Shown here in pieces: positions 1 to 30,529 of a DNA stretch of 37,727 nt. Under the pieces are notes generated by a model. It was not told where the DNA came from. It searched no databases and saw only the letters and a list, made by a program, of their open reading frames with translations. A program made the position numbers and the translations under genes. Source of the stretch: a virus; IMG/VR virus record IMGVR_UViG_3300035188_000108, positions 1-37,727 of that record; one strand, given 5' to 3'. How positions within the stretch are numbered: position 1 is the first letter of the stretch; every line of letters begins with the position of its first letter.

Positions 1-127
1 GTAATCATCAGTGTGTTTCCTTCCAGTTGTTTCCTACTTTGTATTCACCCGTTAGAGGACAACGTAAACCCAAGGTAACACCAGCCTTCTCAATAGCTGC
101 TACAGCGAGTTTACCAACATCATCAGC
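1..127. repeat. Terminal redundancy, left copy (identical to 37601-37727)
   Basis: The first 127 bases recur exactly as the last 127 bases of the window. They cover the 3' end of the DNA polymerase gene and the first codons of the downstream 71-codon gene. The join gives a sensible gene overlap, so the molecule is circular or circularly permuted with 37,600 unique bases. A length of exactly 127 equals the largest k-mer commonly used by de Bruijn assemblers, so it is more likely an assembly overlap than a physical terminal repeat. Confidence 0.95.
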
Positions 128-1648
128 ATACTGCTTAGGACATTCTATCTGCCATTCATCATGGACGTTAGCCACAAAGTGTGCAGGTATCTTATGTTTC
201 TTCAGTGCTTCATGTAGGTGGATCAGACCTTGCTTCATCGATATCGCACCAGCTCCTTGAAGTAACGTGTTAAGTGCTGCGTGTTCCGACCGTACCCATA
301 ATCGACGACCGTCAAGGGCAGGTAAATACCCTTTCTCTGCATACCTGCTAACTTTATCTTTAAGTGTCTTGAGAGCTGGCGTATTCTTAAGGAAACGGGT
401 GATGAGTTTCTTTCCTTCCTCGGCACTGCCTTGAGCAATCGATCCAATCTTAGCTGGCCCTGCTCCATAGAGAAAGGCATAGATAAACGTCTTTGCTTGC
501 GCCCTACTCTCAAGACCAGCAGCGAGTTGGTTTTTAGTGTGGACATCCCCATTGATAACCTCCTTCGTGTACTCATCATCTTTCATGTAGTGAGCTAACA
601 TACGTAGTTCTAAGCCTGAAGCATCACAACCTACTAACACATTACCAGGGTCTACAGTCCATACTTGTCTACATGTTTCACCATAGTCAGCATTGACAGC
701 AGGAACCTGTGCCATGTTAGGGCTGTGATGCGTCATACGCCCTGTGACAGCACCGTTAGTGATGACCTTACCGTGTACCCTACCATCATCAGCAACGTGC
801 TCTAGCCATGATGTAGACTGTGCTATACGCTTCTGGATAAGCAGGTACTCAGCCATTGCCTTAGCCTCTGGATAGGATAGCTTAGACAGGATAACTTCAT
901 CAACCATTGGTTTACCTGTCTCAGTGAACTTTTCAGGCTTCCATCCTAGAGATATAAGTCTACGTCCTATCTGATCTCTGGAGCCTGGGTTAAACACTTC
1001 AACATGATCCTTTAGTTTCTTACCTGTCTTCTCACTAACACGTTCAGTGATGATCGGTGGGAATATAGTCTGTAGATTCTCCTCAATGGTTGATAACTTC
1101 GTAGTTAACTGAGAGATAAACTCAGTACATAAAGGGATGTCTAGTTTGAACCCATGTCTTTCCTGCTGTGCAACAATGAACTGTACCTTGTGTTCGATGT
1201 CAATGCTTTGCTGTGAAAAGTCTTTCAATTCTGTGCATAGTTTGCGATGAAGTTCACCAGTAAGGTTGACATCTTGGATACAGTAATCAATCATCTCTTG
1301 TGTCAAAGCAGTAAAGTCTTGGAACTCAATCTTGTGATTCCCTAATCTTTTCCCCCATGCTTCTAGACTGTGTCCTCCTTCGATACTGGGATTCCATAGC
1401 CTCGACAGCACGAGCGTATCGGAGGCCTTCTTGAGTGGTATCGTAATGTTCCACAATCTCCGAAGGTGGTAACCGTCGAAGCTGATTAGATTGTGTCCGA
1501 TCACTGTGTCGTAATCCTCTATAAGAGGCTTTAGTGTATTTGGATGAGTATGACATACCACCTCACTTGTTGTCAGATCCTTCGTGACTACGCAGAAGAT
1601 AACAGTCTGCTTCATGTCTGTTTCGATGTCCAGCACTAAGCTCTTCAT
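8..1648 (-). CDS. Family A DNA polymerase with 3'-5' exonuclease (T7 gp5-like)
   Basis: Replicative DNA polymerase of 546 residues. The N-terminal proofreading domain shows Exo I DIE (D7, E9), Exo II NLISFDG (D58) and Exo III YCIQD (Y122, D126). The polymerase domain shows motif A DASGLELRMLAHY (342-354), motif B R382/K386/Y390/Y394-G395 and motif C VHDE (495-498). No 5' nuclease domain is fused; a separate gene at 36,258 supplies it. The residue aligned with E. coli Pol I Phe762 is Tyr390, as in T7. The start overlaps the small gene at 1563-1742 and lacks a clear Shine-Dalgarno (SD), which suggests translational coupling. Its TGA overlaps the ATG of the 71-codon gene across the circular join (TGATG). 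No thioredoxin-binding insert was identified. Confidence 0.97.
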   Translation of the reverse strand: MKSLVLDIETDMKQTVIFCVVTKDLTTSEVVCHTHPNTLKPLIEDYDTVIGHNLISFDGYHLRRLWNITIPLKKASDTLVLSRLWNPSIEGGHSLEAWGKRLGNHKIEFQDFTALTQEMIDYCIQDVNLTGELHRKLCTELKDFSQQSIDIEHKVQFIVAQQERHGFKLDIPLCTEFISQLTTKLSTIEENLQTIFPPIITERVSEKTGKKLKDHVEVFNPGSRDQIGRRLISLGWKPEKFTETGKPMVDEVILSKLSYPEAKAMAEYLLIQKRIAQSTSWLEHVADDGRVHGKVITNGAVTGRMTHHSPNMAQVPAVNADYGETCRQVWTVDPGNVLVGCDASGLELRMLAHYMKDDEYTKEVINGDVHTKNQLAAGLESRAQAKTFIYAFLYGAGPAKIGSIAQGSAEEGKKLITRFLKNTPALKTLKDKVSRYAEKGYLPALDGRRLWVRSEHAALNTLLQGAGAISMKQGLIHLHEALKKHKIPAHFVANVHDEWQIECPKQYADDVGKLAVAAIEKAGVTLGLRCPLTGEYKVGNNWKETH

Positions 1649-2096: not shown

Positions 2097-2266
2097 TATG
2101 GTCTCCTGTTAGCATCTTGCATAGCCTCTACGTAGTCTGATGTCTTCCTGATCTCATTGATGATCTCTTCGAACGAACAAACTACTTCACCCATTGTAGA
2201 CCCTGTACGTATCTGCTGTAAAGCAAATCGTTTCGTATCCTCTTTCAAATCTTCATAAGTCTTCAT
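2096..2266 (-). CDS. Small hypothetical protein downstream of primase-helicase
   Basis: A 56-residue protein. The ATG at 2266 is chosen over longer in-frame starts because it has AGAGG about 9 bases upstream and overlaps the primase-helicase stop by only 14 bases; longer versions would lie mostly inside that gene. The sequence, MKTYEDLKEDTKRFALQQI onward, is charged and helical. The stop TAA overlaps the next ATG (TAATG). No function recognised. Confidence 0.7.
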   Translation of the reverse strand: MKTYEDLKEDTKRFALQQIRTGSTMGEVVCSFEEIINEIRKTSDYVEAMQDANRRP

Positions 2267-3860
2267 CTTGTGTGACCTCTGATAACCTTCCTGTTGAGTG
2301 GCTGTAATAGACGTTACAGGCTGGACCTGTGACACCTGAAAAACGGTTTTTAAGCACTCGAATCTTTGTGGTATTGCGTTCACGTTCATCATCATGCTGT
2401 GCATTCCTTTCCATACCGATCACCATATCAGACAACTGTGCAATGCTACCAGATCCTCTAAGCTGACCTAGTGAAGTAGCTGCTCCTTCTTCATGGCCTT
2501 TACCGTCTGGTCTCTTAAGATGGCTGACAATCAACAGTGCTATGCCTGTCTCCTGAACAATCATCCTAAGCTTGGTCATGATCTCATCTAATGCTTTACG
2601 TTCATCGCCAACATCGCCAGAACTGACGACAATACTAATATGATCCAACACAACAAAGCTACATCCGAGTCCTTTAGCCATGAATCTGACTCTTGATAGT
2701 ATGTTGTCAATTGATGTACTCCCAAAATGATCAAAAAGATAAACCCTATTAGTGCCAAGAGTGTGCTCGAAGGCATCTCTAAACTCCTCATCAGTGTACG
2801 CTGTGTCAGGTAGATGCAGTGGCTTGTTCGCATAAATAGACATAATACCTTTGGCAGTGCGAACAGTAGACTCTTCCAGGAACATCAAGCCTATGTTGTC
2901 CTCAGTCTTACATAAGATGTGATAAACAATCTCCCTAAGCACCTGTGATTTACCTAGTCCAGAACCTGCTGTAAACGTCACCAGCTCTCCTTTACGTATG
3001 CCGTAGGTCAAAGCATTAAGACCTTGCCAAGGATAGTCACAAGAGGCTTTAATGGCTGGTGTATTGATATCTTCCCAAAGCTTTGATCCTTCAATGATCC
3101 CATCAGGTACATAGACTTCAGCAGCGAACCAATCCTGAATATACTCCTTGATCATCTCATCTTTGAGATAATCATTAGCATCCTTGTGTGGTTGCCTGTG
3201 CTTGACTATCTTAGCCTTAGCACCGAATAGATCAGCTACCTTCGTAGCAGCTTGCTTACCAACCTCATCAGCATCAAAGCTGATAACAATGGTTTCAAAA
3301 GAGTCAAGATATTCATAGTTGTCCTTACAGTCCTTTAGTGCTGATTGTGCGCCATTGCGTATACTTACTACTGGATACCGCATACCATTCATTTGATATA
3401 CAGCAACAGCATCAAACTCACCTTCAGTGATAGTAATGCTCTTACCACCTTTAGGGAATAGATGTTGTCCGAACAAAGTAGCCTTAGACCAATCACCTTT
3501 GATGGTGCACTCAGTCTTCATTGCATCATGTCTTACCTTGTATGCAGTGACCTTACCATCAGCATCGCAGTAGGGAAAAGCTACACCACCCTCATCAGTG
3601 ATCATCACACCAAAGGCTTTTAAGGCATCTCTGGATAGGTTTCTTAGCGGTATAGACTGATACTTACCATCTAGCATTGGAATCACCTTAGCAGACTTTG
3701 TATGCTTTTGCCTGAAGTTATCAACATCTTCAGACATTTTAGTATTCGTACCACAAGCAAAACAGTGTGACCAAGTCTCTCCTTTATCATTAACAGATAC
3801 AGACAATGCATCACTAGATCCACAATCATCACAGCCAACATGTGTGGCTAAGTAGTTCAC
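2253..3860 (-). CDS. DNA primase-helicase (T7 gp4-like)
   Basis: Bifunctional replicative primase and hexameric DnaB-type helicase, 535 residues. The N-terminal zinc-binding domain has C10, C13, C33 and C36. The TOPRIM domain shows EGE (146-148) and DAD (196-198). The C-terminal RecA-like helicase has Walker A GSGLGKS (299-305), Walker B VVLDH (403-407) and the QLRGSGSIAQLSD motif (466-478). The start is GTG at 3860 with GGAG 8 bases upstream. Together with the family A polymerase and gp2.5-like SSB it forms a T7-type replisome. The last residues (EVTQDEDL) are acidic, like the T7 gp4 tail that contacts the polymerase. Confidence 0.97.
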   Translation of the reverse strand: MNYLATHVGCDDCGSSDALSVSVNDKGETWSHCFACGTNTKMSEDVDNFRQKHTKSAKVIPMLDGKYQSIPLRNLSRDALKAFGVMITDEGGVAFPYCDADGKVTAYKVRHDAMKTECTIKGDWSKATLFGQHLFPKGGKSITITEGEFDAVAVYQMNGMRYPVVSIRNGAQSALKDCKDNYEYLDSFETIVISFDADEVGKQAATKVADLFGAKAKIVKHRQPHKDANDYLKDEMIKEYIQDWFAAEVYVPDGIIEGSKLWEDINTPAIKASCDYPWQGLNALTYGIRKGELVTFTAGSGLGKSQVLREIVYHILCKTEDNIGLMFLEESTVRTAKGIMSIYANKPLHLPDTAYTDEEFRDAFEHTLGTNRVYLFDHFGSTSIDNILSRVRFMAKGLGCSFVVLDHISIVVSSGDVGDERKALDEIMTKLRMIVQETGIALLIVSHLKRPDGKGHEEGAATSLGQLRGSGSIAQLSDMVIGMERNAQHDDERERNTTKIRVLKNRFSGVTGPACNVYYSHSTGRLSEVTQDEDL

Positions 3861-7254: not shown

Positions 7255-7445
7255 GATAAAGCCCTTTCGTTTATGATTGCAATAATAGGATTGATTTCAT
7301 ACGCATAGACTCTAGCGTCATCTAGGCCTACACTACAGACGTAATAGTTAGCGGCTGATTCATTGTCGAATCGCTTTAACCAAGTATGGTCCGATCCCTT
7401 GGTAGTGAAAGACAATAGATAGCCGACAATCTTAAAGTTTTCCAT
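7245..7445 (-). CDS. Small hypothetical protein, paralogue of the following gene
   Basis: A 66-residue protein (MENFKIVGYLLSF onward) with AAGGTG 6 bases upstream; its ATG overlaps the GP88-like gene's stop (TAATG). It matches its downstream neighbour at FKIVGYL, at a central RFDNESAA-like block and at YEINPII. Two related short genes in tandem suggest an early gene under selection for diversification. No known domain. Confidence 0.7.
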   Translation of the reverse strand: MENFKIVGYLLSFTTKGSDHTWLKRFDNESAANYYVCSVGLDDARVYAYEINPIIAIINERALSCQ

Positions 7446-8116
7446 TACATCACCTTTAGTTTGATTACTTTGGACATCTTAACACCATGTGCAATATAGC
7501 CAATAGTGCTTACTGATTTATCCCAACAAGCACGGCAGCCATTGCATTTACCTTCATGTTGATATGCTTCGCAAACCTTGATGTTATCGGCATCAAAGCT
7601 TGTTGCAATGGTGCTAGACCAAGGTGCATCCAATACTTCGCCGACAATAGAATCCGATGATCGACGCACTACAACATTGTCCAATGCATCCATCTTGTCG
7701 ATGATTGATTGAAATTTAGTGAATTTATACATCCTAGTCGGTAACCAGTGCTTAACCCATGGTGTACGTTGCATAACCTCGAGCATTTTCTCTGCTAATC
7801 CGATAGCGTACATGTCACCGCTATCAAACCAGCGAAAGTATCTATCAGCGTCTAAAGCTTTGACCATGTCATCAACCCAGCTATCACGCTGCCAATCCTC
7901 CCTGTTATGAATCCTTGGTGCTTTGACATTAGGATAATTGTAGTTGCCCGTAGTTGCATAACAGCCTTTACAAGCATCGACAAGCGAACCATCACTAGCC
8001 TTCGAACCAGGACATGTATCGAGTGCCTGAAGGGACCATGATCGAATGCCATCAAGCTTTGATGTGATGCTTATTTTGACTTGGGGTTTACTATACTCTG
8101 CTACCTGCATTGCCAT
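7445..8116 (-). CDS. GP88-like cysteine-rich phage protein
   Basis: A 223-residue protein that resembles the mycobacteriophage gene product 88 family. The N-terminal part has CPGS (C35) and C49-x2-C52 in CKGCYATTGNY, followed by YFRWFDSGDM (93-102) in the middle. The C-terminal region has C182 and a C191-x2-C194-x2-C197 cluster (CNGCRACW). Seven conserved-looking cysteines suggest zinc or Fe-S binding, and the layout recalls a TIM-barrel or radical-enzyme-like protein, but the activity is unknown. The start ATG 8116 has AAAGGA about 10 bases upstream; ATG 8110 is possible. It is the second gene of the leftward arm, so expected early. Confidence 0.75.
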   Translation of the reverse strand: MAMQVAEYSKPQVKISITSKLDGIRSWSLQALDTCPGSKASDGSLVDACKGCYATTGNYNYPNVKAPRIHNREDWQRDSWVDDMVKALDADRYFRWFDSGDMYAIGLAEKMLEVMQRTPWVKHWLPTRMYKFTKFQSIIDKMDALDNVVVRRSSDSIVGEVLDAPWSSTIATSFDADNIKVCEAYQHEGKCNGCRACWDKSVSTIGYIAHGVKMSKVIKLKVM

Positions 8117-8149: not shown

Positions 8150-8359
8150 TTAAACAATAGCTATGAAATCACGCTTTAAAAGTCTTGCAGTATCGCACAA
8201 ATGCTTGATCGAGGTTTGATCGCAACGGTCATAAATCAAGGCAATTCTACTGGCTTCTGAACGATCTGCTTCACTGTATTTTGCAATTGTTGCCAGTGCC
8301 TCTGCTTTTCTTGCATCAAGACCAGAAAAAACTTCGACGATGTTTACTGTGTTTTGCAT
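8150..8359 (-). CDS. First leftward gene, small hypothetical protein
   Basis: A 69-residue protein. ATG 8359 is chosen because AGGAG lies 7 bases upstream; a longer reading from 8404 has no SD and runs through low-complexity CAAA repeats. The sequence MQNTVNIVEVFSGLDARKAE onward is Ala-rich and helical. It is the gene nearest the origin region on the leftward side, so it is likely transcribed first and could be a host-takeover or regulatory protein. No family recognised. Confidence 0.65.
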   Translation of the reverse strand: MQNTVNIVEVFSGLDARKAEALATIAKYSEADRSEASRIALIYDRCDQTSIKHLCDTARLLKRDFIAIV

Positions 8360-8450
8360 TTGTTTGCTCCTAGGTTGTTTGTTTGTGTGTGCTGCGAAGT
8401 GCATTGTACCGACTTTGTTTGTTTTGTGTGCTCAAAAGCCTAAATAACAG

Positions 8451-8479
8451 ACGAACGGTGGATTTGTCCGACAAACGGT
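8451..8479. promoter_or_regulatory. Operator-like palindrome with flanking direct repeats
   Basis: TTTGTCCGACAAA (8463-8475) is a perfect palindrome with a one-base centre. ACGAACGGT (8451-8459) and ACAAACGGT (8471-8479) are direct repeats exactly 20 bp apart, two helical turns. The site is about 90 bp upstream of the first leftward gene, where a regulator of leftward transcription could bind. Confidence 0.45.
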
Positions 8480-8540
8480 CATGGCACAGATCCAGCACAG
8501 ATCAATCAAGTGTCTCTATGTGGTGCTTCATCGACATACC

Positions 8541-8613
8541 TGCACAGTCTCTGCACAGTCTCTGCACAGTCTCTGCACAGTCTCTGCACAGTCTCTGCAC
8601 AGTCTCTGCACAG
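8541..8613 (+). repeat. 11-bp tandem repeats (TGCACAGTCTC x6 plus a partial seventh)
   Basis: Six perfect head-to-tail copies of TGCACAGTCTC (8541-8606) are followed by TGCACAG (8607-8613), which runs directly into the first DnaA box. The 11-bp period keeps each copy on nearly the same helical face. Such iterons commonly bind an initiator or regulator. Related single copies (CTGCACTG) occur at about 8960 and 8985. Confidence 0.95.
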
Positions 8614-8717
8614 TTATCCACAGACAACATTTCACATTGTGAGATATACAGAGTTATCCACAGGTTACTAACAGGTTATCCACAGATAACACCATAGTTA
8701 TCCACAGGTTATCAACA
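8614..8717 (+). promoter_or_regulatory. DnaA-box cluster (four exact TTATCCACA)
   Basis: Exact TTATCCACA boxes start at 8614, 8654, 8676 and 8698. Degenerate TTACTAACA (8665) and TTATCAACA (8709) fill the array, so from 8654 onward boxes begin at multiples of 11 bp, all in one orientation. The consensus is the high-affinity bacterial DnaA site. Phased, same-strand boxes beside tandem repeats are typical of an initiation site. Confidence 0.88.
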
Positions 8718-8762
8718 TAGGGGGAGGGGTGGAGTTGTAGTGTAAATTGTTGTGGTGCTACC

Positions 8763-8820
8763 TAGCCTCAAAAAAGAGCAAAATAGGAAAGCTCTATAGC
8801 CTCAAAAAAGAACAAAATAG
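8763..8820 (+). repeat. Pair of 24-bp direct repeats
   Basis: The segments 8763-8786 and 8797-8820 agree at 23 of 24 positions (one G/A difference) and are spaced by 34 bp start to start. Each begins TAGCCTC and contains a run of six A residues. They lie between the DnaA boxes and an AT-rich stretch, where a DNA-bending or unwinding element would be expected. Confidence 0.9.
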
Positions 8821-9006
8821 ACAATGCTAATGATAATTCATTACTAATAAGAAATCTCTTTAGAATCAATAGGTTATCTATAAAGCCTCTGCGGAGCCTA
8901 AGACACCATGTTAATGGAGTCCCGCCATAGCCTATGTTGGTATGGTTCTTGCATATGATCTGCACTGGTTCAAACACAGATTCTGCACTGAATATGAAGA
9001 AATAAC

Positions 9007-9035
9007 TTGACAAACTCTTAAAAATATGCTAGAAT
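9007..9035 (+). promoter_or_regulatory. Main rightward sigma70 promoter (late/structural arm)
   Basis: TTGACA (9007-9012), a 17-base spacer and TAGAAT (9030-9035): an almost perfect sigma70 promoter. Transcription should start near 9042, followed at once by CTATGTAGGCTATG (9044-9057), the element also found after the leftward promoter at 5,240. The leader of about 147 bases to the small terminase gene contains a CTGCC-TTCC-GGCAG hairpin (9154-9167). Confidence 0.85.
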
Positions 9036-9188
9036 AGATACTTCTATGTAGGCTATGAACAAAACATCGTATAAAAACTAAATAATAGTAGACATATAAC
9101 TTATCGTCATACACTACATTGTAGATACATAAAATTATATACACCTTACAGTCCTGCCTTCCGGCAGAGAAACTATATAGAGGTAGTG

Positions 9189-9674
9189 ATGTCCGAAATT
9201 AAAACTGAAGTTATATCTGATCTTTGTTCGCTACCTTCATCGGTCAGCCAGGATGTCGTGGCAGTCAATGAAGAAAAGAAAGTGCCTGCGAAAAAAAGGA
9301 AAAGAGGAAGACCAAAGAAAGAAGAAGTACAGAAGTACATCAAAAGAGCTAAAAGAGGTAGACCTCCTGGTGAAGCAGCAAGGATTAAAGAACTAACAGC
9401 TTCGCTGTTGCTGACACACTCACAGGCTATCATCAGGAAGATAGTGCATAAGGCTCTGAATGATGAGGATAAGGATCAGATGGCAGCACTAAAGTTATGT
9501 GTTGATAGGATGTTGCCAGTAAGTTACTTTGAGGATAAAGGTGCTAGTGGAGGCTCTAGAGCCATTACCATCAACATCACTGGAGTAAATGACAATCCAG
9601 TAGAGATGATTGAGCATGAACCTGTTGACGTAGAAACTACTTTGATAGATTACGAAGAAGAAGACGATGAGTGA
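9189..9674 (+). CDS. Putative terminase small subunit with AT-hook motifs
   Basis: A 161-residue protein from ATG 9189 (AGAGG 6 bases upstream). The assignment rests mainly on its position directly before the large terminase, with an 8-base overlap, and on its DNA-binding character. Two basic GRP motifs, KKRKRGRPKKEE (about 35-46) and AKRGRPPGE (about 54-62), are AT-hook-like. A helical middle (ARIKELTASLLLTHSQAII) and a very acidic C-terminus (IDYEEEDDE) follow. Small terminases recognise the packaging site and recruit the large subunit. Confidence 0.75.
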   Translation: MSEIKTEVISDLCSLPSSVSQDVVAVNEEKKVPAKKRKRGRPKKEEVQKYIKRAKRGRPPGEAARIKELTASLLLTHSQAIIRKIVHKALNDEDKDQMAALKLCVDRMLPVSYFEDKGASGGSRAITINITGVNDNPVEMIEHEPVDVETTLIDYEEEDDE

Positions 9675-10923
9675 TCTAACAGTAGCTCTACTACCGTGGC
9701 AACAAGAGGTCTTTAAAGACCCTGTAAGGTTTAAGATCATCGCTGCTGGTAGACGTACAGGTAAGTCAAGGTTAGCAGCTTGGACACTGATTATAGAGGC
9801 TCTACAGTCAGATAAAGGTCATATCTGGTATGTAGCACCAACGCAGGGACAAGCTAGAGATATTATGTGGACTACGCTGTTAGAGCTAGGTCATACGGTC
9901 ATCAAAGGTAGTCATGTCAATAACATGCAGATTACGTTGGTGAATGGAGCAATGATATCGCTAAAGGGTGCAGATAGACCAGAAACAATGCGTGGTGTTA
10001 GTCTTAAATACTTAGTGATGGATGAGTATGCAGACATGAAGCCACAGGTGTTCGAACAAATCCTTAGACCTGCTTTAGCGGATCAGAAGGGTAGAGCAAT
10101 GTTCATAGGAACACCAATGGGTAGAAACCATTTCTATGAACTGTACAAGTTAGGTGATAGCGGTAAGGATCAACATTACAAGGCATGGCACTTCACTAGC
10201 TTTGATAATCCATTGTTAGATCCTGAAGAGATTGAAGCTGCTAGAGGATCAATGTCTAGCTTTGCTTTTAGACAAGAGTTCATGGCATCGTTTGAGGCTG
10301 CGCAGTCGGAGATCTTTAAAGATGAATGGATTAAGATCAGTGACGAAGAACCTGAAGACGGTAACTACTTCATTGCGGTGGATCTATGTGGTTTTACGGA
10401 TTCATCTCAGACGAACAAGACGAAGAATTCTAAACTGGATGAAACAGCGATAGCCATTGTTAAGGTCAACACTAAAGGCTGGTGGGTAGCTGACATACAG
10501 TATGGTAGATGGGATGTCCGAGAAACAGCAGTAAGGATTCTAAAGGCTGCTAAGGACTACAGAGTCAATGCTGTAGGGATTGAGAAAGGTGCATTGAAGA
10601 ATGCAGTAATGCCTTATATGAATGATCTGATGAGGAGATTAAACTACTATCCTCGTATTGAAGAACTAACACACGGTAATAAGAAGAAGACAGATAGGAT
10701 TGTTTGGTCACTACAAGGACGATTTGAACACGGTAGGATTGTACTGAATGAAGCTGATTGGAATAACAAGTTTGTTGATCAACTGATGCAGTTCCCTGAT
10801 AGTAAGACTCATGATGACTTAATTGATGCTGTGAGCTACATTGATCAGATACAAGTAGCAGATTGGAATCAGAACTTGAATGAAGAAGAGTACGAAGTCC
10901 TAGACACAACAATAGGTTGGTGA
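9667..10923 (+). CDS. Terminase large subunit
   Basis: A 418-residue DNA packaging motor with nuclease. The ATPase domain has Walker A GRRTGKS (28-34), Walker B LVMDE with catalytic E120 (116-120) and the coupling motif FIGTP (146-150). The C-terminal RNase H-like nuclease has acidic residues at D239 (FIAVDL), E306 (GIEKG) and D384 (THDDLIDAVSYI). It acts at the portal vertex to cut and translocate concatemeric DNA. The short length is usual for podoviral terminases of this type. The gene overlaps the small subunit by 8 bases. Confidence 0.97.
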   Translation: MSDLTVALLPWQQEVFKDPVRFKIIAAGRRTGKSRLAAWTLIIEALQSDKGHIWYVAPTQGQARDIMWTTLLELGHTVIKGSHVNNMQITLVNGAMISLKGADRPETMRGVSLKYLVMDEYADMKPQVFEQILRPALADQKGRAMFIGTPMGRNHFYELYKLGDSGKDQHYKAWHFTSFDNPLLDPEEIEAARGSMSSFAFRQEFMASFEAAQSEIFKDEWIKISDEEPEDGNYFIAVDLCGFTDSSQTNKTKNSKLDETAIAIVKVNTKGWWVADIQYGRWDVRETAVRILKAAKDYRVNAVGIEKGALKNAVMPYMNDLMRRLNYYPRIEELTHGNKKKTDRIVWSLQGRFEHGRIVLNEADWNNKFVDQLMQFPDSKTHDDLIDAVSYIDQIQVADWNQNLNEEEYEVLDTTIGW

Positions 10924-24629: not shown

Positions 24630-26615
24630 ATGGCTACCACTATGAACTTAACTCCTGAACAGAAGCTAGGAGTTCTTAATGTCATTGCAGGTAATATAGG
24701 AAACCCTGAAGCAATTAGACAGGCTGCACAGAGGTTTGGAGCAACTGCGAATGATTTAGCCAACATCACAGGTATTCCTGTAGATCAAGTTCATCAGTAT
24801 TTCTTAGATGCTGGTGTACCTATGGGTACTTTGTTGACAGGTGGTGTACAACGAAACTTTGGTACTGAAGGTAATATCCGTCAGTTAGACAAAGGCGAGG
24901 ACATCACTGTTGAGAAGGCTATCGGACGACAGGGTGATAAGATTGTTGTTCAACGGTATGATGCTTATGGCACACCAACAACGACAAGACTTGCTGATCC
25001 TAATACTTCTGAAGGTAAAGGCTGGTTACAAGCACTAGGCATTGTTGGCGGTGCTATTGGACTAAGCAGTATACCTGAGATAAGTTCTTTGTTCGGTGGT
25101 ACTGAAGCTGCCACTGCTGCTGGTAGCACTGCTGCACCTGTAGGTGGTACTGCTGCTGGTGGAACAACCGCTGGTGCTGCTGGTGGTACTGCTGCTGGTT
25201 CTTCAAGTGGACTATTAAGCTCTGCTGTTCCTGGAGGTGCTGCAACTGGAACATTAGAAGCTGCGGGGGCCGCTGCCAATAAAGTAATTCCGTTTGCTGC
25301 TGGTATGGATGCGGGTTCTATAGCGTACGCTGATGTTTTAATGCAGACAGGTAGTGCTGAATTAGCTACATTAGCTTCTGAAGTAGCTTCTGGTAATGCT
25401 GCTGCTGGTTTATCATTAACAGATTCCGTACTTGCTGGTACTACAGCAGCCGCAGACGCAGCCGCAACAGGTGCTGTTTCCTCTACTGGTAATGTTGTTG
25501 GTGGGGGTGGTAATATAACCACTGGAGCAACTATCGGCACAGGGGCTACTGTAGGTAGTAATTTAGTAAGTGACGCAGCTAACGCAATTAAACCAACAAC
25601 TGATGCAGCTAAAGCTTTATTAGATCCTAAAACACTTGGTAGTCTTGTTAATTCTGGTGTTAACTTATCCTTAATTCAAGATGCTGCTGATAAGCTACGT
25701 AAACAAGGACAGATAAGCCAAGACGAATATGATAAGTTATCAACAAACTTATTTAATGTTTACCGTGATGTAGGTTTAGGTGCTGGTACAGCATTAGCTA
25801 ACATCGGTGAACGTGCATCAAAGATGGTTGGTGACTTCACACCATATGGTGTATCCACTAACTTAGTAAACACAAAAGTTAATCCACAGACAGGACAACT
25901 AGAGAGTAACATTACTGACACAGCTCAGATGCTGATGGCTCCTCTAGGTAGAGCTGCTATTCAGTCTGCACAGGCTGCTGAGATGACTAACGTAGATCAA
26001 CTCAGCAAGGATTACTACAACAAACTAGCTGCATTGTCCGCACCTGAAGCACAGCGTCAGCGTCTAGCCACTGAAGAGCGTATGCGTCAGCAAGGTAGGT
26101 TAGGTTTACTTGGTTCTGGTCTTGATGTAGCAGGTAAACAAGTAAGCACAGCAGCACCTGAGTTAACTGCTTTGGAACAAGCACTGGCAAGACAGCAACT
26201 AGAAAGAGAAGTACAGTCTAGAAACCTTGCATTAGGTGAACGTGGTACACTGTTAAACCAAGCACAGCAAGCCTATGCACCACTACAGCAGATTAGTCAA
26301 CAAGCACTACAACAAGCTCAGTTATCTGGTCAGTTAGGTCAGATGTCTCAGGCTGGTAGGATTGCACAAACTAATGCTTATATGCAACCTGCTATGACTG
26401 GTATCACAGCACCGCTAAATCTATTCTCCCAAGGTCTAACACAGGTTGGTAATGCTCAGGCTCTTGGTATTAATGCTAAATTAAGAGCTGACGAAGAAGC
26501 TTTAGCAGCTCTTGTAGGTGGCAGAAGAAACGTAGCTAACCAGTTGTTTGGACCTAACGGTATTGACTACTCAAAGCTAATTGATGCTGGTTCTAAAATA
26601 CTTGGTTTACCTTAA
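24630..26615 (+). CDS. Large Ala/Gly-rich internal virion or ejection protein
   Basis: A 661-residue protein. After an N-terminal helical region (LGVLNVIAGNIGNPEAIRQ) comes an Ala/Gly/Thr-rich stretch of about 150 residues (about 150-320), then long helical Gln-rich segments (ALARQQLEREVQSRNLALGE; QISQQALQQAQLSGQLGQ). Position between the tail hub and the two other large proteins fits podoviral ejection proteins that build a channel across the cell envelope. No enzymatic motif was seen. Confidence 0.65.
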   Translation: MATTMNLTPEQKLGVLNVIAGNIGNPEAIRQAAQRFGATANDLANITGIPVDQVHQYFLDAGVPMGTLLTGGVQRNFGTEGNIRQLDKGEDITVEKAIGRQGDKIVVQRYDAYGTPTTTRLADPNTSEGKGWLQALGIVGGAIGLSSIPEISSLFGGTEAATAAGSTAAPVGGTAAGGTTAGAAGGTAAGSSSGLLSSAVPGGAATGTLEAAGAAANKVIPFAAGMDAGSIAYADVLMQTGSAELATLASEVASGNAAAGLSLTDSVLAGTTAAADAAATGAVSSTGNVVGGGGNITTGATIGTGATVGSNLVSDAANAIKPTTDAAKALLDPKTLGSLVNSGVNLSLIQDAADKLRKQGQISQDEYDKLSTNLFNVYRDVGLGAGTALANIGERASKMVGDFTPYGVSTNLVNTKVNPQTGQLESNITDTAQMLMAPLGRAAIQSAQAAEMTNVDQLSKDYYNKLAALSAPEAQRQRLATEERMRQQGRLGLLGSGLDVAGKQVSTAAPELTALEQALARQQLEREVQSRNLALGERGTLLNQAQQAYAPLQQISQQALQQAQLSGQLGQMSQAGRIAQTNAYMQPAMTGITAPLNLFSQGLTQVGNAQALGINAKLRADEEALAALVGGRRNVANQLFGPNGIDYSKLIDAGSKILGLP

Positions 26616-26624
26616 GGAACAGTA

Positions 26625-27905
26625 ATGGCACAACAACAAATGAGTTTATTTGGTCCTAGTGCTTTCGATATACAAAGACAACAAGCACAACAAGACCAAA
26701 CTAATGCAGTAGCCCAGGCTCAATTAACTCCTTTCCAGAGTATAAGGGCTAGTGCTCTTATGTCAGGTACACAAGCTGGTAGAAGCTTAGCAGGTTTGTT
26801 CGGTATCGAAGATCCTGCATTGTCTGAAGCTAAGAAGATGGAAGAGCTAAAGGCTGCTGTGGCTGCTCAGTGGGATGGTAATGATCCGTTAGAGGCTTAC
26901 AAGATCTTCGCTAAAGAAGCTTCTGCTAGAGGTCTTACACAGGCTGCTATCGGTGCTGCTACACAGATTAAAGCTTTTGAGGCTGATAGGGAAAAGACTG
27001 CTCTTGGTAAACGTAAGGCAGAGGCTGAGATAACTCTTGCTGGTGCTCGTGTAGGACAAGCTGAAGCTGCTGCAAAAGCTAGTGAGGCTAAAGCTAGTGC
27101 TGCTGGTCAGCTTAAACCCTCTGAGCTTGGAACACTACAGGCTGAAAGAGATGCTTTACGTACTCGTATGCAGAATTCTACCAGCCCACTAGAGCAAGAA
27201 GAACTACGACAGCGTATTGCTGAAATTGATGCTGTTATTACTACAAAGACAACAGCTAAAGCTAAAACACCTCCTTCAGTTGGTCAGGATAGGGAGGCAC
27301 TAGCTCAGGATATGTTTGATACAGATTTTTACAGTTTAACGCAAGAGCAAAAAAAGGTTGTTAATGATCGATACGAGAAACTTGTTAGAAGTAAAACACC
27401 TAACATCAATATCGACACTAAAGATTTGTATGGTTTTGTACGTGGCGCTAATTCTGATCTTGCACCAATTGTTAAACAAGTTTCGACTTTAGATACTGCT
27501 ATTAATTTACTTAACCAACAATCATCTCCTTTTGCTTCTAGAGCCTTAGAGCAACAAATTGCTTCAATCTTTGGTGACGCTAACAAAGCTAAGGACGAGA
27601 TTAAAGCATTGGCTAATACTGGTTCTCTTGATGAACGCATTGCCAACAATATCCTTAATTTCTTGTCCGGTACTAAAACAGATGCTACCAAATCAGACCA
27701 ACAAACTGTGTTACGTGCTTTAAGAGCCAAATTAGGTAAAGATTACGAAAACACTGCAACTCCTTTAAGAAGTGCGTTGAAAGGTAATAAAAACGTAGAT
27801 CCAAATCAAGTTATTCCTCCTTTCTCAACAAGATTTGGTGAACTGCCTTTATCAACTACAGGACAAAGAACAACAAAGTCAGGCACTGTATACACTGTTG
27901 AATAA
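26625..27905 (+). CDS. Internal virion / ejection protein
   Basis: A 426-residue protein, helical and rich in Gln, Ala and Lys (QRQQAQQDQTNAVAQAQLTP near the start; AEAEITLAGARVGQAEAAAK around 130), with a C-terminal domain ending TKSGTVYTVE. It lies between two other large virion-type proteins with 10-15 base gaps, so it is probably co-expressed with them and loaded in the head. Assignment is by composition and position. Confidence 0.62.
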   Translation: MAQQQMSLFGPSAFDIQRQQAQQDQTNAVAQAQLTPFQSIRASALMSGTQAGRSLAGLFGIEDPALSEAKKMEELKAAVAAQWDGNDPLEAYKIFAKEASARGLTQAAIGAATQIKAFEADREKTALGKRKAEAEITLAGARVGQAEAAAKASEAKASAAGQLKPSELGTLQAERDALRTRMQNSTSPLEQEELRQRIAEIDAVITTKTTAKAKTPPSVGQDREALAQDMFDTDFYSLTQEQKKVVNDRYEKLVRSKTPNINIDTKDLYGFVRGANSDLAPIVKQVSTLDTAINLLNQQSSPFASRALEQQIASIFGDANKAKDEIKALANTGSLDERIANNILNFLSGTKTDATKSDQQTVLRALRAKLGKDYENTATPLRSALKGNKNVDPNQVIPPFSTRFGELPLSTTGQRTTKSGTVYTVE

Positions 27906-27919
27906 CCTAAGGAATAAGA

Positions 27920-30529
27920 ATGCCTACTTATACCATTAACGGTAGAACTGTAAGGACTACTAAACCTCTTACAGACGATGAGATTGATGAGATTGCTGCT
28001 ACACTACCTACACAGGCTGGTGTAACACCTAAAGAACTATCTAAGGTATTCCAACGTAATCGACCACAAGATACTGGTGTTACTCCTGGTCAATACTTAA
28101 CTGATGTTGCTAAAGGAACTGTAGCTAGGTTTGTCCCCGATATTATGAGAGCTGTTGCTGGTATGGAAGCTCCTCTACAGACTCCATCAGCAGAACCAGG
28201 ACTAACACAACAGATTGAAAAACAGTTTATTCAGCCTGTAGAGCAAAGAACACAGCAAGCGGTAGGTTATCAGCAAATACCTGCTCCTGATAAAGCATCA
28301 CGTCTTGTTGGTGCTGGTCTTGAGTCTGCTGGTTCTCCTATTAACATTGCTTCAGGCGGTGGTGGTATTGTTGCTAGGGTATTGCAAGGTTTTATACCAG
28401 GGATGACAGCAGAGTTTGGTGGCCAAGTAGGACAGAACATTGCTGGTGATGCTGGTCAGTTTGTAGGTGCTTTAACTGGTGGTATTACTGGTGGTTTAGG
28501 ACAATCTCAGCTTGGCTTTAGAGCTGCTAAGCTAGGGTATGACAGGTTTGCTCCTAAGATACAACAAGCTAAACAACGTCTCAGTGGTACTGTTCCAGAG
28601 GAAGAAATACAGCGTGAAGCTAGTGGTGCTGTAGAAAACATCTTACGTGCTGCTGCTGATGCTGATCCTAACATTGCCGCTAACATCCAGAGAGCTGATG
28701 AGATAGCTCGTACTACTGGTGTACAACTACCAGCAACGGCTATCCTAAACAGTAACCCAGTGTTGGTTGACCAAGTTAGGAGCTTAGCTGCCAGAGATCC
28801 TGTATTCCGTAGTCAATACGGTCAACAGTTTGAACAAGCTCAACAGGCTTTAGAGGGAAGAGCTACAAGATTGTTCGGACAACCAGCAACAGCCAATGCA
28901 GTCATTCAACAAACTGTTAAGGATATACCTTTAGATAAGATTCAACTTCGTAGAATAGATGCTCTTAACAAAGAGATAATTAAAAAGTCTACTTTTACCA
29001 CTGCTGATACAAAAGATCTAGGGGCATCTATTGACAAATTACTAGTTGATAAAGAAATAGCTGCGAGACAGGTTACTAGTCCGTTGTATGACGATGCTCT
29101 AAACTTCGCTAGAGAAAATGATATTAACTTTCCAGCAAAGAACATAGAAGACATCTTAACTTACGCAGAAGATACAAAGAATGCTGATATATTAAAGACG
29201 TTCCCTTCTATTTGGACTAAGCTAGAAAAAGATCTTAGACCTAAAGTTACTCAAGCAGCATCAATATTACAACCAAACGGCAAACCTTTTAAGATATTAG
29301 GTCCAGGTTCTATTGAAGACTTAGATTCCTTAAAAAGAGAAGTTAATTTACAACTTCGTAGAACGAAAAACGAAGATACTAGACGGATATTAGGTAACTT
29401 CCGTGATAAAGTAGATGAGGTTATTTATTCTTTGCCTGAAGGGTTTTCTTCAAGGTATAAGTATGCTGATGCTGTTTATAAAAGTACTGTTGGTGAGCCT
29501 TTTAGCGAAGAGGCAATAAAACAAATAGATAGGGCTAGGTTTGATGAAGCAATCGTACCTATTCTTACCAAGAACAAGTCTTCGATAACTCAGTTTTTGG
29601 ATGTTACAGGGAACGAAGGCGCTGATCTAGCAATAAAGGCTTTCTTATTAGACTTTGACAAAGCAGCAGTTAAGGACGGAGTCATTGATGTTAACGCTGC
29701 TAGGAAATGGTTAAAAAGTAAAGAGCCTGCTTTATCTGTGCTAGGTGACAGGGCAGATACAATTAGAAATGCTGTTAACGATGTTAATGTATTGAATGTA
29801 GAGAAAGTAAAGATTAACAATGCCTTCACAGAAGCTAAAAAGAATAAGCTACTTCAGCTAGAAGGCAAGACTGCACAAGAGATCGTAAGTGGTCTATACA
29901 GCAAACCAGCTAACGTAGATCAGTTCTTACGTACTTATGGCAGTAACGTGGATACTCTCAACGCTATACGATCATTCATGTTAGATGATGTGTTGTCCGC
30001 TACTGATCCTATTGCAGCATTGACGGACAGGACTAGGAAGGCTACCTACGATAAAGTCTTTGGACCTACGTACATCAAGAATGTAGAGAGCTTAGCAGAA
30101 GCTTCTAAAAGATTAGCGGACAATCCTGCTAACGTTAAGTTTAACGTACAGGAAGTACCTAAAACAGAGATTGAGCGTATAACAGGTACTACACCAGAGT
30201 CTATAGCATCACAAGTGCGTGATCGGTTTACATCAGCACCATACGTAGTAACATCCTTGTTGTCCAAGTTCTGGGCAAAACAGACAGCAGAAGCTACTGA
30301 TGCTCAACTTAAGGCTTTATTACTTAATCCTCAAGAAGTTAAGAAGTTGTCACAAGCTTTCACACCAAAGGCTGATGGATCTTTAGATTTAACTAAAGTT
30401 AACTCAGCACTGAAGTCAGCACAGAAGTTTGGTGTTAACTTACTAGAGATGGCAATCAACGATGCTGCAATGGGTGCTGTAAGAGCTACACCAGCTATCC
30501 AGGCTAACATGCCAGAGGGGATGCAGTAA
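27920..30529 (+). CDS. Large internal virion / DNA ejection protein
   Basis: An 869-residue protein, the largest in the genome, at the position occupied by T7 gp16 and P22 ejection proteins. N-terminal phrase MPTYTINGRTVRTTKPLTDD; then a Gly-rich segment (GGIVARVLQGFIPGMTAEFG; VGQNIAGDAGQFVGALTGG, about 145-190) that could be amphipathic or membrane-active. Long charged helices follow. I do not see a lysozyme or SLT catalytic motif. The stop overlaps the holin start (TAATG). Confidence 0.65.
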   Translation: MPTYTINGRTVRTTKPLTDDEIDEIAATLPTQAGVTPKELSKVFQRNRPQDTGVTPGQYLTDVAKGTVARFVPDIMRAVAGMEAPLQTPSAEPGLTQQIEKQFIQPVEQRTQQAVGYQQIPAPDKASRLVGAGLESAGSPINIASGGGGIVARVLQGFIPGMTAEFGGQVGQNIAGDAGQFVGALTGGITGGLGQSQLGFRAAKLGYDRFAPKIQQAKQRLSGTVPEEEIQREASGAVENILRAAADADPNIAANIQRADEIARTTGVQLPATAILNSNPVLVDQVRSLAARDPVFRSQYGQQFEQAQQALEGRATRLFGQPATANAVIQQTVKDIPLDKIQLRRIDALNKEIIKKSTFTTADTKDLGASIDKLLVDKEIAARQVTSPLYDDALNFARENDINFPAKNIEDILTYAEDTKNADILKTFPSIWTKLEKDLRPKVTQAASILQPNGKPFKILGPGSIEDLDSLKREVNLQLRRTKNEDTRRILGNFRDKVDEVIYSLPEGFSSRYKYADAVYKSTVGEPFSEEAIKQIDRARFDEAIVPILTKNKSSITQFLDVTGNEGADLAIKAFLLDFDKAAVKDGVIDVNAARKWLKSKEPALSVLGDRADTIRNAVNDVNVLNVEKVKINNAFTEAKKNKLLQLEGKTAQEIVSGLYSKPANVDQFLRTYGSNVDTLNAIRSFMLDDVLSATDPIAALTDRTRKATYDKVFGPTYIKNVESLAEASKRLADNPANVKFNVQEVPKTEIERITGTTPESIASQVRDRFTSAPYVVTSLLSKFWAKQTAEATDAQLKALLLNPQEVKKLSQAFTPKADGSLDLTKVNSALKSAQKFGVNLLEMAINDAAMGAVRATPAIQANMPEGMQ

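Follow-up and report, generated by a model that had tools for sequence, protein, structure and literature searches.

Introduction

Arrays of DnaA boxes in phage genomes are usually taken as replication origins, and loci of the datA type titrate DnaA. It is also already known that lytic phages can carry sites for host regulators in gap regions or terminal repeats. Alphaproteobacterial phages have their CtrA sites concentrated in the direct terminal repeats or in gap regions, as supported by EMSA and reporter assays, and lytic deferment was proposed for these sites; the DnaA sites of the same phages show no positional asymmetry (PMC9437464). Lytic deferment was also proposed for the Bacillus phage phi29, which combines Spo0A sites with the capture of Spo0J (Meijer 2005, as cited in PMC9437464). 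A limited search of the open-access literature returned no description of a many-allele slot including DnaA boxes, and none of terminal repeats that contain arrays of them.

Here, we analysed a DnaA-box array in a small freshwater phage, using the whole 37,727-nt stretch of its record (the window). A sequence-only reading of this DNA had proposed that the boxes recruit or titrate host DnaA and open the origin of a phage with a T7-type replisome and no RNA polymerase. We found that such arrays act like a single allele of a slot with rapidly changing content, and that T7-like phages amenable to cultivation also have them in their terminal repeats.

Results

Organization of the phage genome

The two ends of the record overlap by 127 bp within the polymerase gene, from which we take the genome to be a circle of ~37.6 kb; the overlap itself is probably an assembly overlap. 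The leftward genes encode a family A DNA polymerase (polymerase part at 8..1648, minus strand), a T7-type DNA primase-helicase (2253..3860, minus strand, phrog_239), an exonuclease, a RusA-like resolvase, a thymidylate synthase and a B12-type ribonucleotide reductase. The first two bear out the T7-type replisome of the earlier reading, and the nearest relatives of the primase-helicase, at 46-53% identity, are in pelagiphages, roseophages and SIO1. The leftward genes also include a GP88-family early protein (7445..8116, minus strand, Pfam PF17338) and a first early ORF of 84 aa without family match (8150..8404, minus strand). The rightward genes encode terL, portal, capsid, tail and lysis proteins. 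The first of these late genes encodes an AT-hook protein directly before terL, and we named it terS by its position (9186..9674, plus strand); terL (9667..10923, plus strand) shares less than 45% identity with the isolated phages listed. Between the early and the late genes, which are divergent, lies an ORF-poor junction (8405..9185) that contains the array.

The lack of a phage RNA polymerase is supported by the profile PF00940, which had no match in the window while hitting the positive controls T7 and phiEap-1 at E ~1e-110, and by the window ORFs scanned, none of which matched an RNA polymerase family. Three large late ORFs (24630-30529; 661, 426 and 869 aa) have no PHROG or Pfam match and are probably virion proteins. 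A search of genome contigs for gp4 relatives, aimed at the host, found none.

A phased array of DnaA boxes

The junction holds four exact copies of TTATCCACA and two degenerate ones, all on the plus strand, exactly as they had been read from the sequence. The first exact box (8614..8622) lies 40 bp before the second, off the 11-bp grid of the others, and was found in part of the relatives with this type of array (type A, see below), not in all. The grid comprises the second exact box (8654..8662), a degenerate box with two mismatches (TTACTAACA, 8665..8673) that is invariant in 12 of 12 aligned A-type relatives, the third and fourth exact boxes (8676..8684 and 8698..8706), and a near-consensus box with one mismatch (TTATCAACA, 8709..8717), where the relative L047 has an exact TTATCCACA. 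The starts at 8654, 8665, 8676, 8698 and 8709 do differ by multiples of 11 bp, and the grid position 8687 is empty.

This cluster is not the product of chance, because only one in 300 shuffled windows (mean of 0.39 exact boxes) had as many as two exact boxes in a span of 104 bp. Boxes with up to two mismatches are not enriched over the whole window (125 found, 132 expected). Within the window clade, the majority fraction is 0.96 at box positions versus 0.80 in the spacers, with 7 of 159 circular shifts equally good. The consensus sequences used here for DnaA, Fur, parS and IHF are those that we take to describe these sites.

Several elements surround the array, among which the tandem repeat, the G-run and the IHF-consensus site were absent from the earlier reading. 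On its left side, abutting the first box, the 11-mer CTGCACAGTCT is tandemly repeated in 6.8 perfect copies (8540..8614, plus strand), and at this position the relatives have 0-7 scattered GCACAG-type motifs. Directly to its right lies a G-run (GGGGGAGGGG, 8720..8729, plus strand). It is followed by two copies of a 24-bp direct repeat (TAGCCTCAAAAAAGAGCAAAATAG, 8763..8786 and 8797..8820, plus strand), of which many relatives have a single copy; the two repeats, TAGCCTCAAAAAAGARCAAAATAG, are 34 bp apart. Further right lies an IHF-consensus site (AATCAATAGGTTA, for WATCAANNNNTTR; 8864..8876, plus strand). A block around this site and GCCTCTGCGGAGCC (8864-8960) is well conserved across relatives with different repeats. 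A sigma-70-like promoter, TTGACA-N17-TAGAAT (9007..9035, plus strand), reads into the late genes.

Exchange of repeat cassettes among close relatives

We compared the junctions of 71 distinct relatives over the 100-150 bp left of the G-run. The slot immediately left of the G-run holds at least seven unrelated repeat cassettes among relatives with 97-99% identical terS. DnaA boxes as in the window (cassette A) occupy 12 of the 71 junctions, and cassettes D and E occupy 12 each. Inverted repeats ATTGTC-N8-GACAAT (cassette B) were found in 10, repeats of CYGAYRAACGG (cassette G) in nine plus one similar single, cassette d in eight, Fur-like repeats (cassette C) in four, and DnaA boxes in inverted orientation (cassette F) in three (L059, L060 and L247). 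Cassettes B, D, d and G matched no site familiar to us. Two flanking elements are stable: the G-run is present in 71 of 71 window-clade junctions, where it adjoins each cassette type on the right side, as it does in other clades, and 70 of 71 regions retain the IHF-consensus site irrespective of the cassette.

The exchange is rapid. Sister contigs less than 0.5% apart differ in cassette, and a terS/terL DNA tree (74 rows) requires at least 41 cassette changes, versus 44-54 when labels are shuffled. A pair of DnaA boxes was lacking in 11 of the 13 records searched, and the near-complete relatives with other cassettes have none anywhere. Since cassettes swap and relatives do without any box pair, the boxes are not indispensable to the replication machinery.

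No early-region ORF family was specific to cassette A, which led us to reject a phage-encoded binder of this cassette and makes a host-supplied one likelier. Two early-region ORF families are enriched with cassette G. TerS and gp4 were also judged unlikely readers of the cassette, both being near-identical across cassette types. Cassette E was inspected against what we take to be the NrdR consensus: some of its palindromes (ACACTATATGTAGTGG; L023, L054, L075 and L079) agree at 14-15 of 16 positions, and three of these four loci have a second, weaker palindrome 31 bp away. Overall, NrdR boxes in cassette E show no excess over shuffles, and we did not retain this candidate.

Next to the slot, 46 of 80 window-clade loci and two clade-A loci have a parS 14-mer (GTTYCACGTGRAAC), versus none in shuffles; the window itself has no parS. 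In these 46 loci, among the junctions L002-L081 (e.g., L002, L005, L059 and L072), the parS-like sequence is GTTTCACGTGGAAC, usually with an adjacent palindrome, TTGTTCGAATACAAC, and the parS of the two distant clade-A loci reads GTTCCACGTGGAAC.

Arrays in a second clade and in a wider sample

In a second clade (clade B, 57% identity in terL), 37 of 53 junctions have two or more exact boxes, mostly in a fixed geometry, 11-23-166-24, with drifting spacers. Conservation favours the boxes more clearly than in the window clade, with 0.90 at boxes versus 0.78 in spacers, and none of 338 circular shifts is equally good. Relatives without the boxes were to refute the sequence-only reading, and most of the nearest relatives of the window do lack them, though other clades commonly have boxes that keep their geometry. 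An IHF-consensus site is found in 42 of 42 clade-B regions.

The slot of clade B alternates DnaA boxes with repeats resembling the sites of Fur and SlmA. Members without boxes have Fur-like TGAGAATNATTCNCA repeats before the G-run at five loci, so that Fur-like repeats occupy the slot in two clades, or arrays like GTGAGTGCTCAC at four loci, 18-41 bp from the G-run. The latter are one base off the SlmA consensus, GTGAGTACTCAC (PMC3116907), and yielded 17 matches to GTRAGTNCTYAC, versus 0-3 in shuffles. At this distance from the G-run, in L432, L433, L439 and L442 of this clade, GTRAGTGCTYAC-type arrays resemble SlmA nucleoid-occlusion sites, and relatives have DnaA boxes. These Fur-like, SlmA-like and ParB assignments express a resemblance of motifs.

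Beyond these clades, at least 120 viral contigs have three exact TTATCCACA boxes in a short span, versus one for a permuted control. Neighbouring boxes on the same strand are preferentially spaced by 11, 12 and 21-23 bp. Among the matches listed, the array of every triple-box contig with a terS match precedes this gene by 118-791 bp, and both orientations occur. Records of ~5 kb (a Dipodfec virus, a bajarodmic virus and a Gokushovirus; BLAST matches H91, H92 and H6) also match DnaA-box arrays. No DnaA array was found in SIO1, T7, or the first 50 kb of HTVC115P and of MW202701.

Arrays within terminal repeats of T7-like phages

Three isolated Autographiviridae, i.e., T7-like phages encoding an RNA polymerase, have their boxes wholly within a direct terminal repeat: ZK1 has six exact boxes in 292 bp (L470), phiEap-1 has five boxes in 195 bp (L471), and Ship_A7 has four exact boxes in 177 bp (L447). 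Many Klebsiella phages carry TTATCCACA arrays related to those of these three. The order of a C-run followed by a TGTGGATAA array is common to the window (in reverse complement), phiEap-1 and Ship_A7 (on its reverse strand). The cobavirus ICBM1 has a 172-bp repeat exactly in its divergent junction, with a C-run near the repeat start. The junction at 8405..9185 occupies a position equivalent to that of the direct terminal repeat of ICBM1, and by analogy the array may perhaps lie in or next to a terminal repeat of the window phage, at ~8580-8760.

Discussion

Our results tentatively suggest that the segment is an exchangeable docking cassette for host proteins, the 'DnaA allele' of a slot in the divergent control/terminus region, which most likely serves to sequester DnaA as phage copies multiply. 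The boxes, their conserved phasing, the slot, its exchange, the G-run, the IHF-consensus site and the parS of relatives are features of the sequences themselves. As for the binder, DnaA is our best guess, given the genuine consensus boxes and their conserved spacing in relatives, and this part of the earlier proposal, to recruit or titrate DnaA, is retained, whereas a role of the boxes as origin opener in place of a missing RNA polymerase is not supported.

The mechanism might operate as follows. Host DnaA would bind the phased, high-affinity boxes, of which the window array holds four exact ones per genome. With each phage genome adding 4-6 boxes, hundreds of copies could tie up most of the free DnaA, and such depletion would restrain new rounds of host replication, to the presumed benefit of the phage. 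Sequestration could take place only after phage replication has started, because an injected genome brings just 4-6 boxes, or 8-12 if they are in a terminal repeat. The array would also build a nucleoprotein complex beside the G-run and the IHF-consensus site. The alleles of relatives would dock other host chromosome proteins (Fur-like, and SlmA-like in another clade), and most of these phages have a parS site for ParB next to the slot. If any repeat array suffices, the bound protein may matter less than the repeats.

One may go further and imagine, with less confidence, that a lineage of small aquatic phages has a multi-allelic 'socket' into which host chromosome proteins fit, accommodating DnaA, Fur-like and SlmA-like sites and perhaps those of NrdR, with the parS of ParB beside it. 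Recombination would swap its contents almost randomly between phages that are otherwise near-identical, phage DNA alone, with no help from a phage protein, would reprogram host replication, division or regulation, and the same trick would have arisen in T7-like terminal repeats. We regard this generalization as possible and lean against it.

The parallels with terminal repeats raise another explanation, in which the array would form the variable interior of a terminal repeat or concatemer junction, involved in end maturation, in the pausing of forks or polymerases, or in end protection, and in which any protein-holding repeat suffices. It would account for the C-run and box order shared with phiEap-1 and Ship_A7, the six exact boxes of ZK1, the repeat of ICBM1 in the same divergent junction, and the retention of the G-run with every cassette; freely swapped content also suits a sequence-tolerant role. 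Like T7-type terminal repeats, the segment lies at a module junction and has a C-run followed by repeats. Yet, contig ends do not concentrate at the array (G001 and G008, two of ~10 near-complete contigs, are cut in the junction), and the 127-bp overlap of the window ends lies elsewhere, in the polymerase gene, and resembles an assembly overlap. The window terL is distant from cobavirus and T7 terminases, and TerS is an unlikely reader of a cassette that changes while it remains 97-99% identical. We find this explanation improbable.

It is similarly doubtful that the cassette is a sensor of the host state, in which host regulators (DnaA in this case) would bind in the control region and retard or adjust the early and late promoters that diverge from it. 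There is published precedent in the lytic deferment proposed for CtrA sites, with EMSA and reporter support, and for Spo0A/Spo0J in phi29 (PMC9437464), and the window does show what that model describes, a cluster of host-regulator sites in a gap region or terminal repeat. The slot lies between divergent gene blocks, a sigma-70-like promoter leads into the late genes, and swapping regulator sites would retune the phage. However, the boxes are ~290 bp from this promoter and overlap no recognised promoter, and in the phages of the precedent the DnaA sites had no positional asymmetry (PMC9437464).

The sequence-only reading proposed a DnaA-assisted origin onto which the phage would load its gp4 primase-helicase; in the form considered here, DnaA would act with IHF to open the AT-rich DNA that adjoins the array. 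As in oriC-like origins, the window has a phased cluster of consensus boxes, and the adjoining DNA is 66-75% AT; an IHF-consensus site is nearby and kept across cassettes, the geometry of boxes is conserved in clade B, and the phage lacks an RNA polymerase. The array also sits at the GC-skew minimum of the window, but this is no proof of an origin because the skew follows gene direction, with which it is fully confounded. Other observations speak against it. An oriC-like element would keep its boxes in all phages that share one replication machinery, but relatives with near-identical gp4 and terS have other cassettes, with unrelated repeats and without any box pair, and the change occurs at less than 0.5% divergence. 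It would also keep a fixed box polarity towards the unwinding element, but the array is inverted in F-type relatives. Similar arrays occupy terminal repeats in T7-like phages with an RNA polymerase of their own, which weakens the argument that the boxes replace a missing one. Finally, other alleles resemble the sites of proteins, Fur and SlmA, neither of which is known to us to melt origins. Exchange, inversion and absence in near-identical relatives disfavour an obligatory DnaA-dependent origin, and we consider even an assisting role unlikely. An origin of the array in plasmids was discarded, as only weak matches were found, the best to a 6.5-kb Formicincola plasmid.

If the docking cassette does sequester DnaA, DNA-only decoys would join the known means of cell-cycle takeover by phages, and DnaA boxes by themselves would be a risky basis for assigning a phage origin. 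Why lytic phages gather host DnaA sites, and sites like those of other chromosome proteins, at their genome junctions or ends becomes a question that can be tested in laboratory phages.

The putative docking cassette shares traits with several known systems without being equivalent to any. Like bacterial oriC and DnaA-dependent plasmid origins, it has phased TTATCCACA boxes, AT-rich neighbouring DNA and an IHF-consensus site, but in the lineage of the window the boxes are dispensable, invertible and exchangeable. Like datA, it groups high-affinity DnaA boxes, which in sufficient copies could deplete free DnaA by a putative titration; unlike datA, it is carried by a multiplying phage genome. 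It resembles phi29, as far as this phage is described in PMC9437464, in that a virulent phage carries sites for a host regulator and for host ParB, parS being present in most window-clade relatives; it differs in the proteins concerned, in having no sporulation and no protein-primed linear genome known here, and in the lack of parS in the window. With the CtrA-site phages (PMC9437464) it has in common that a lytic phage groups sites for a host cell-cycle regulator in its terminal repeat or gap region, but here the regulator would be DnaA, the sites are off recognised promoters, and the slot is swapped among many repeat types. As for terminal repeats, phiEap-1, Ship_A7 and ZK1 differ from the window by encoding an RNA polymerase and by having established repeats where that of the window is putative, and the ICBM1 repeat has no DnaA boxes. 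Nevertheless, the window shares TTATCCACA arrays with the terminal repeats of phiEap-1, Ship_A7 and ZK1, and a C-run followed by a repeat array with those of phiEap-1, Ship_A7 and ICBM1.
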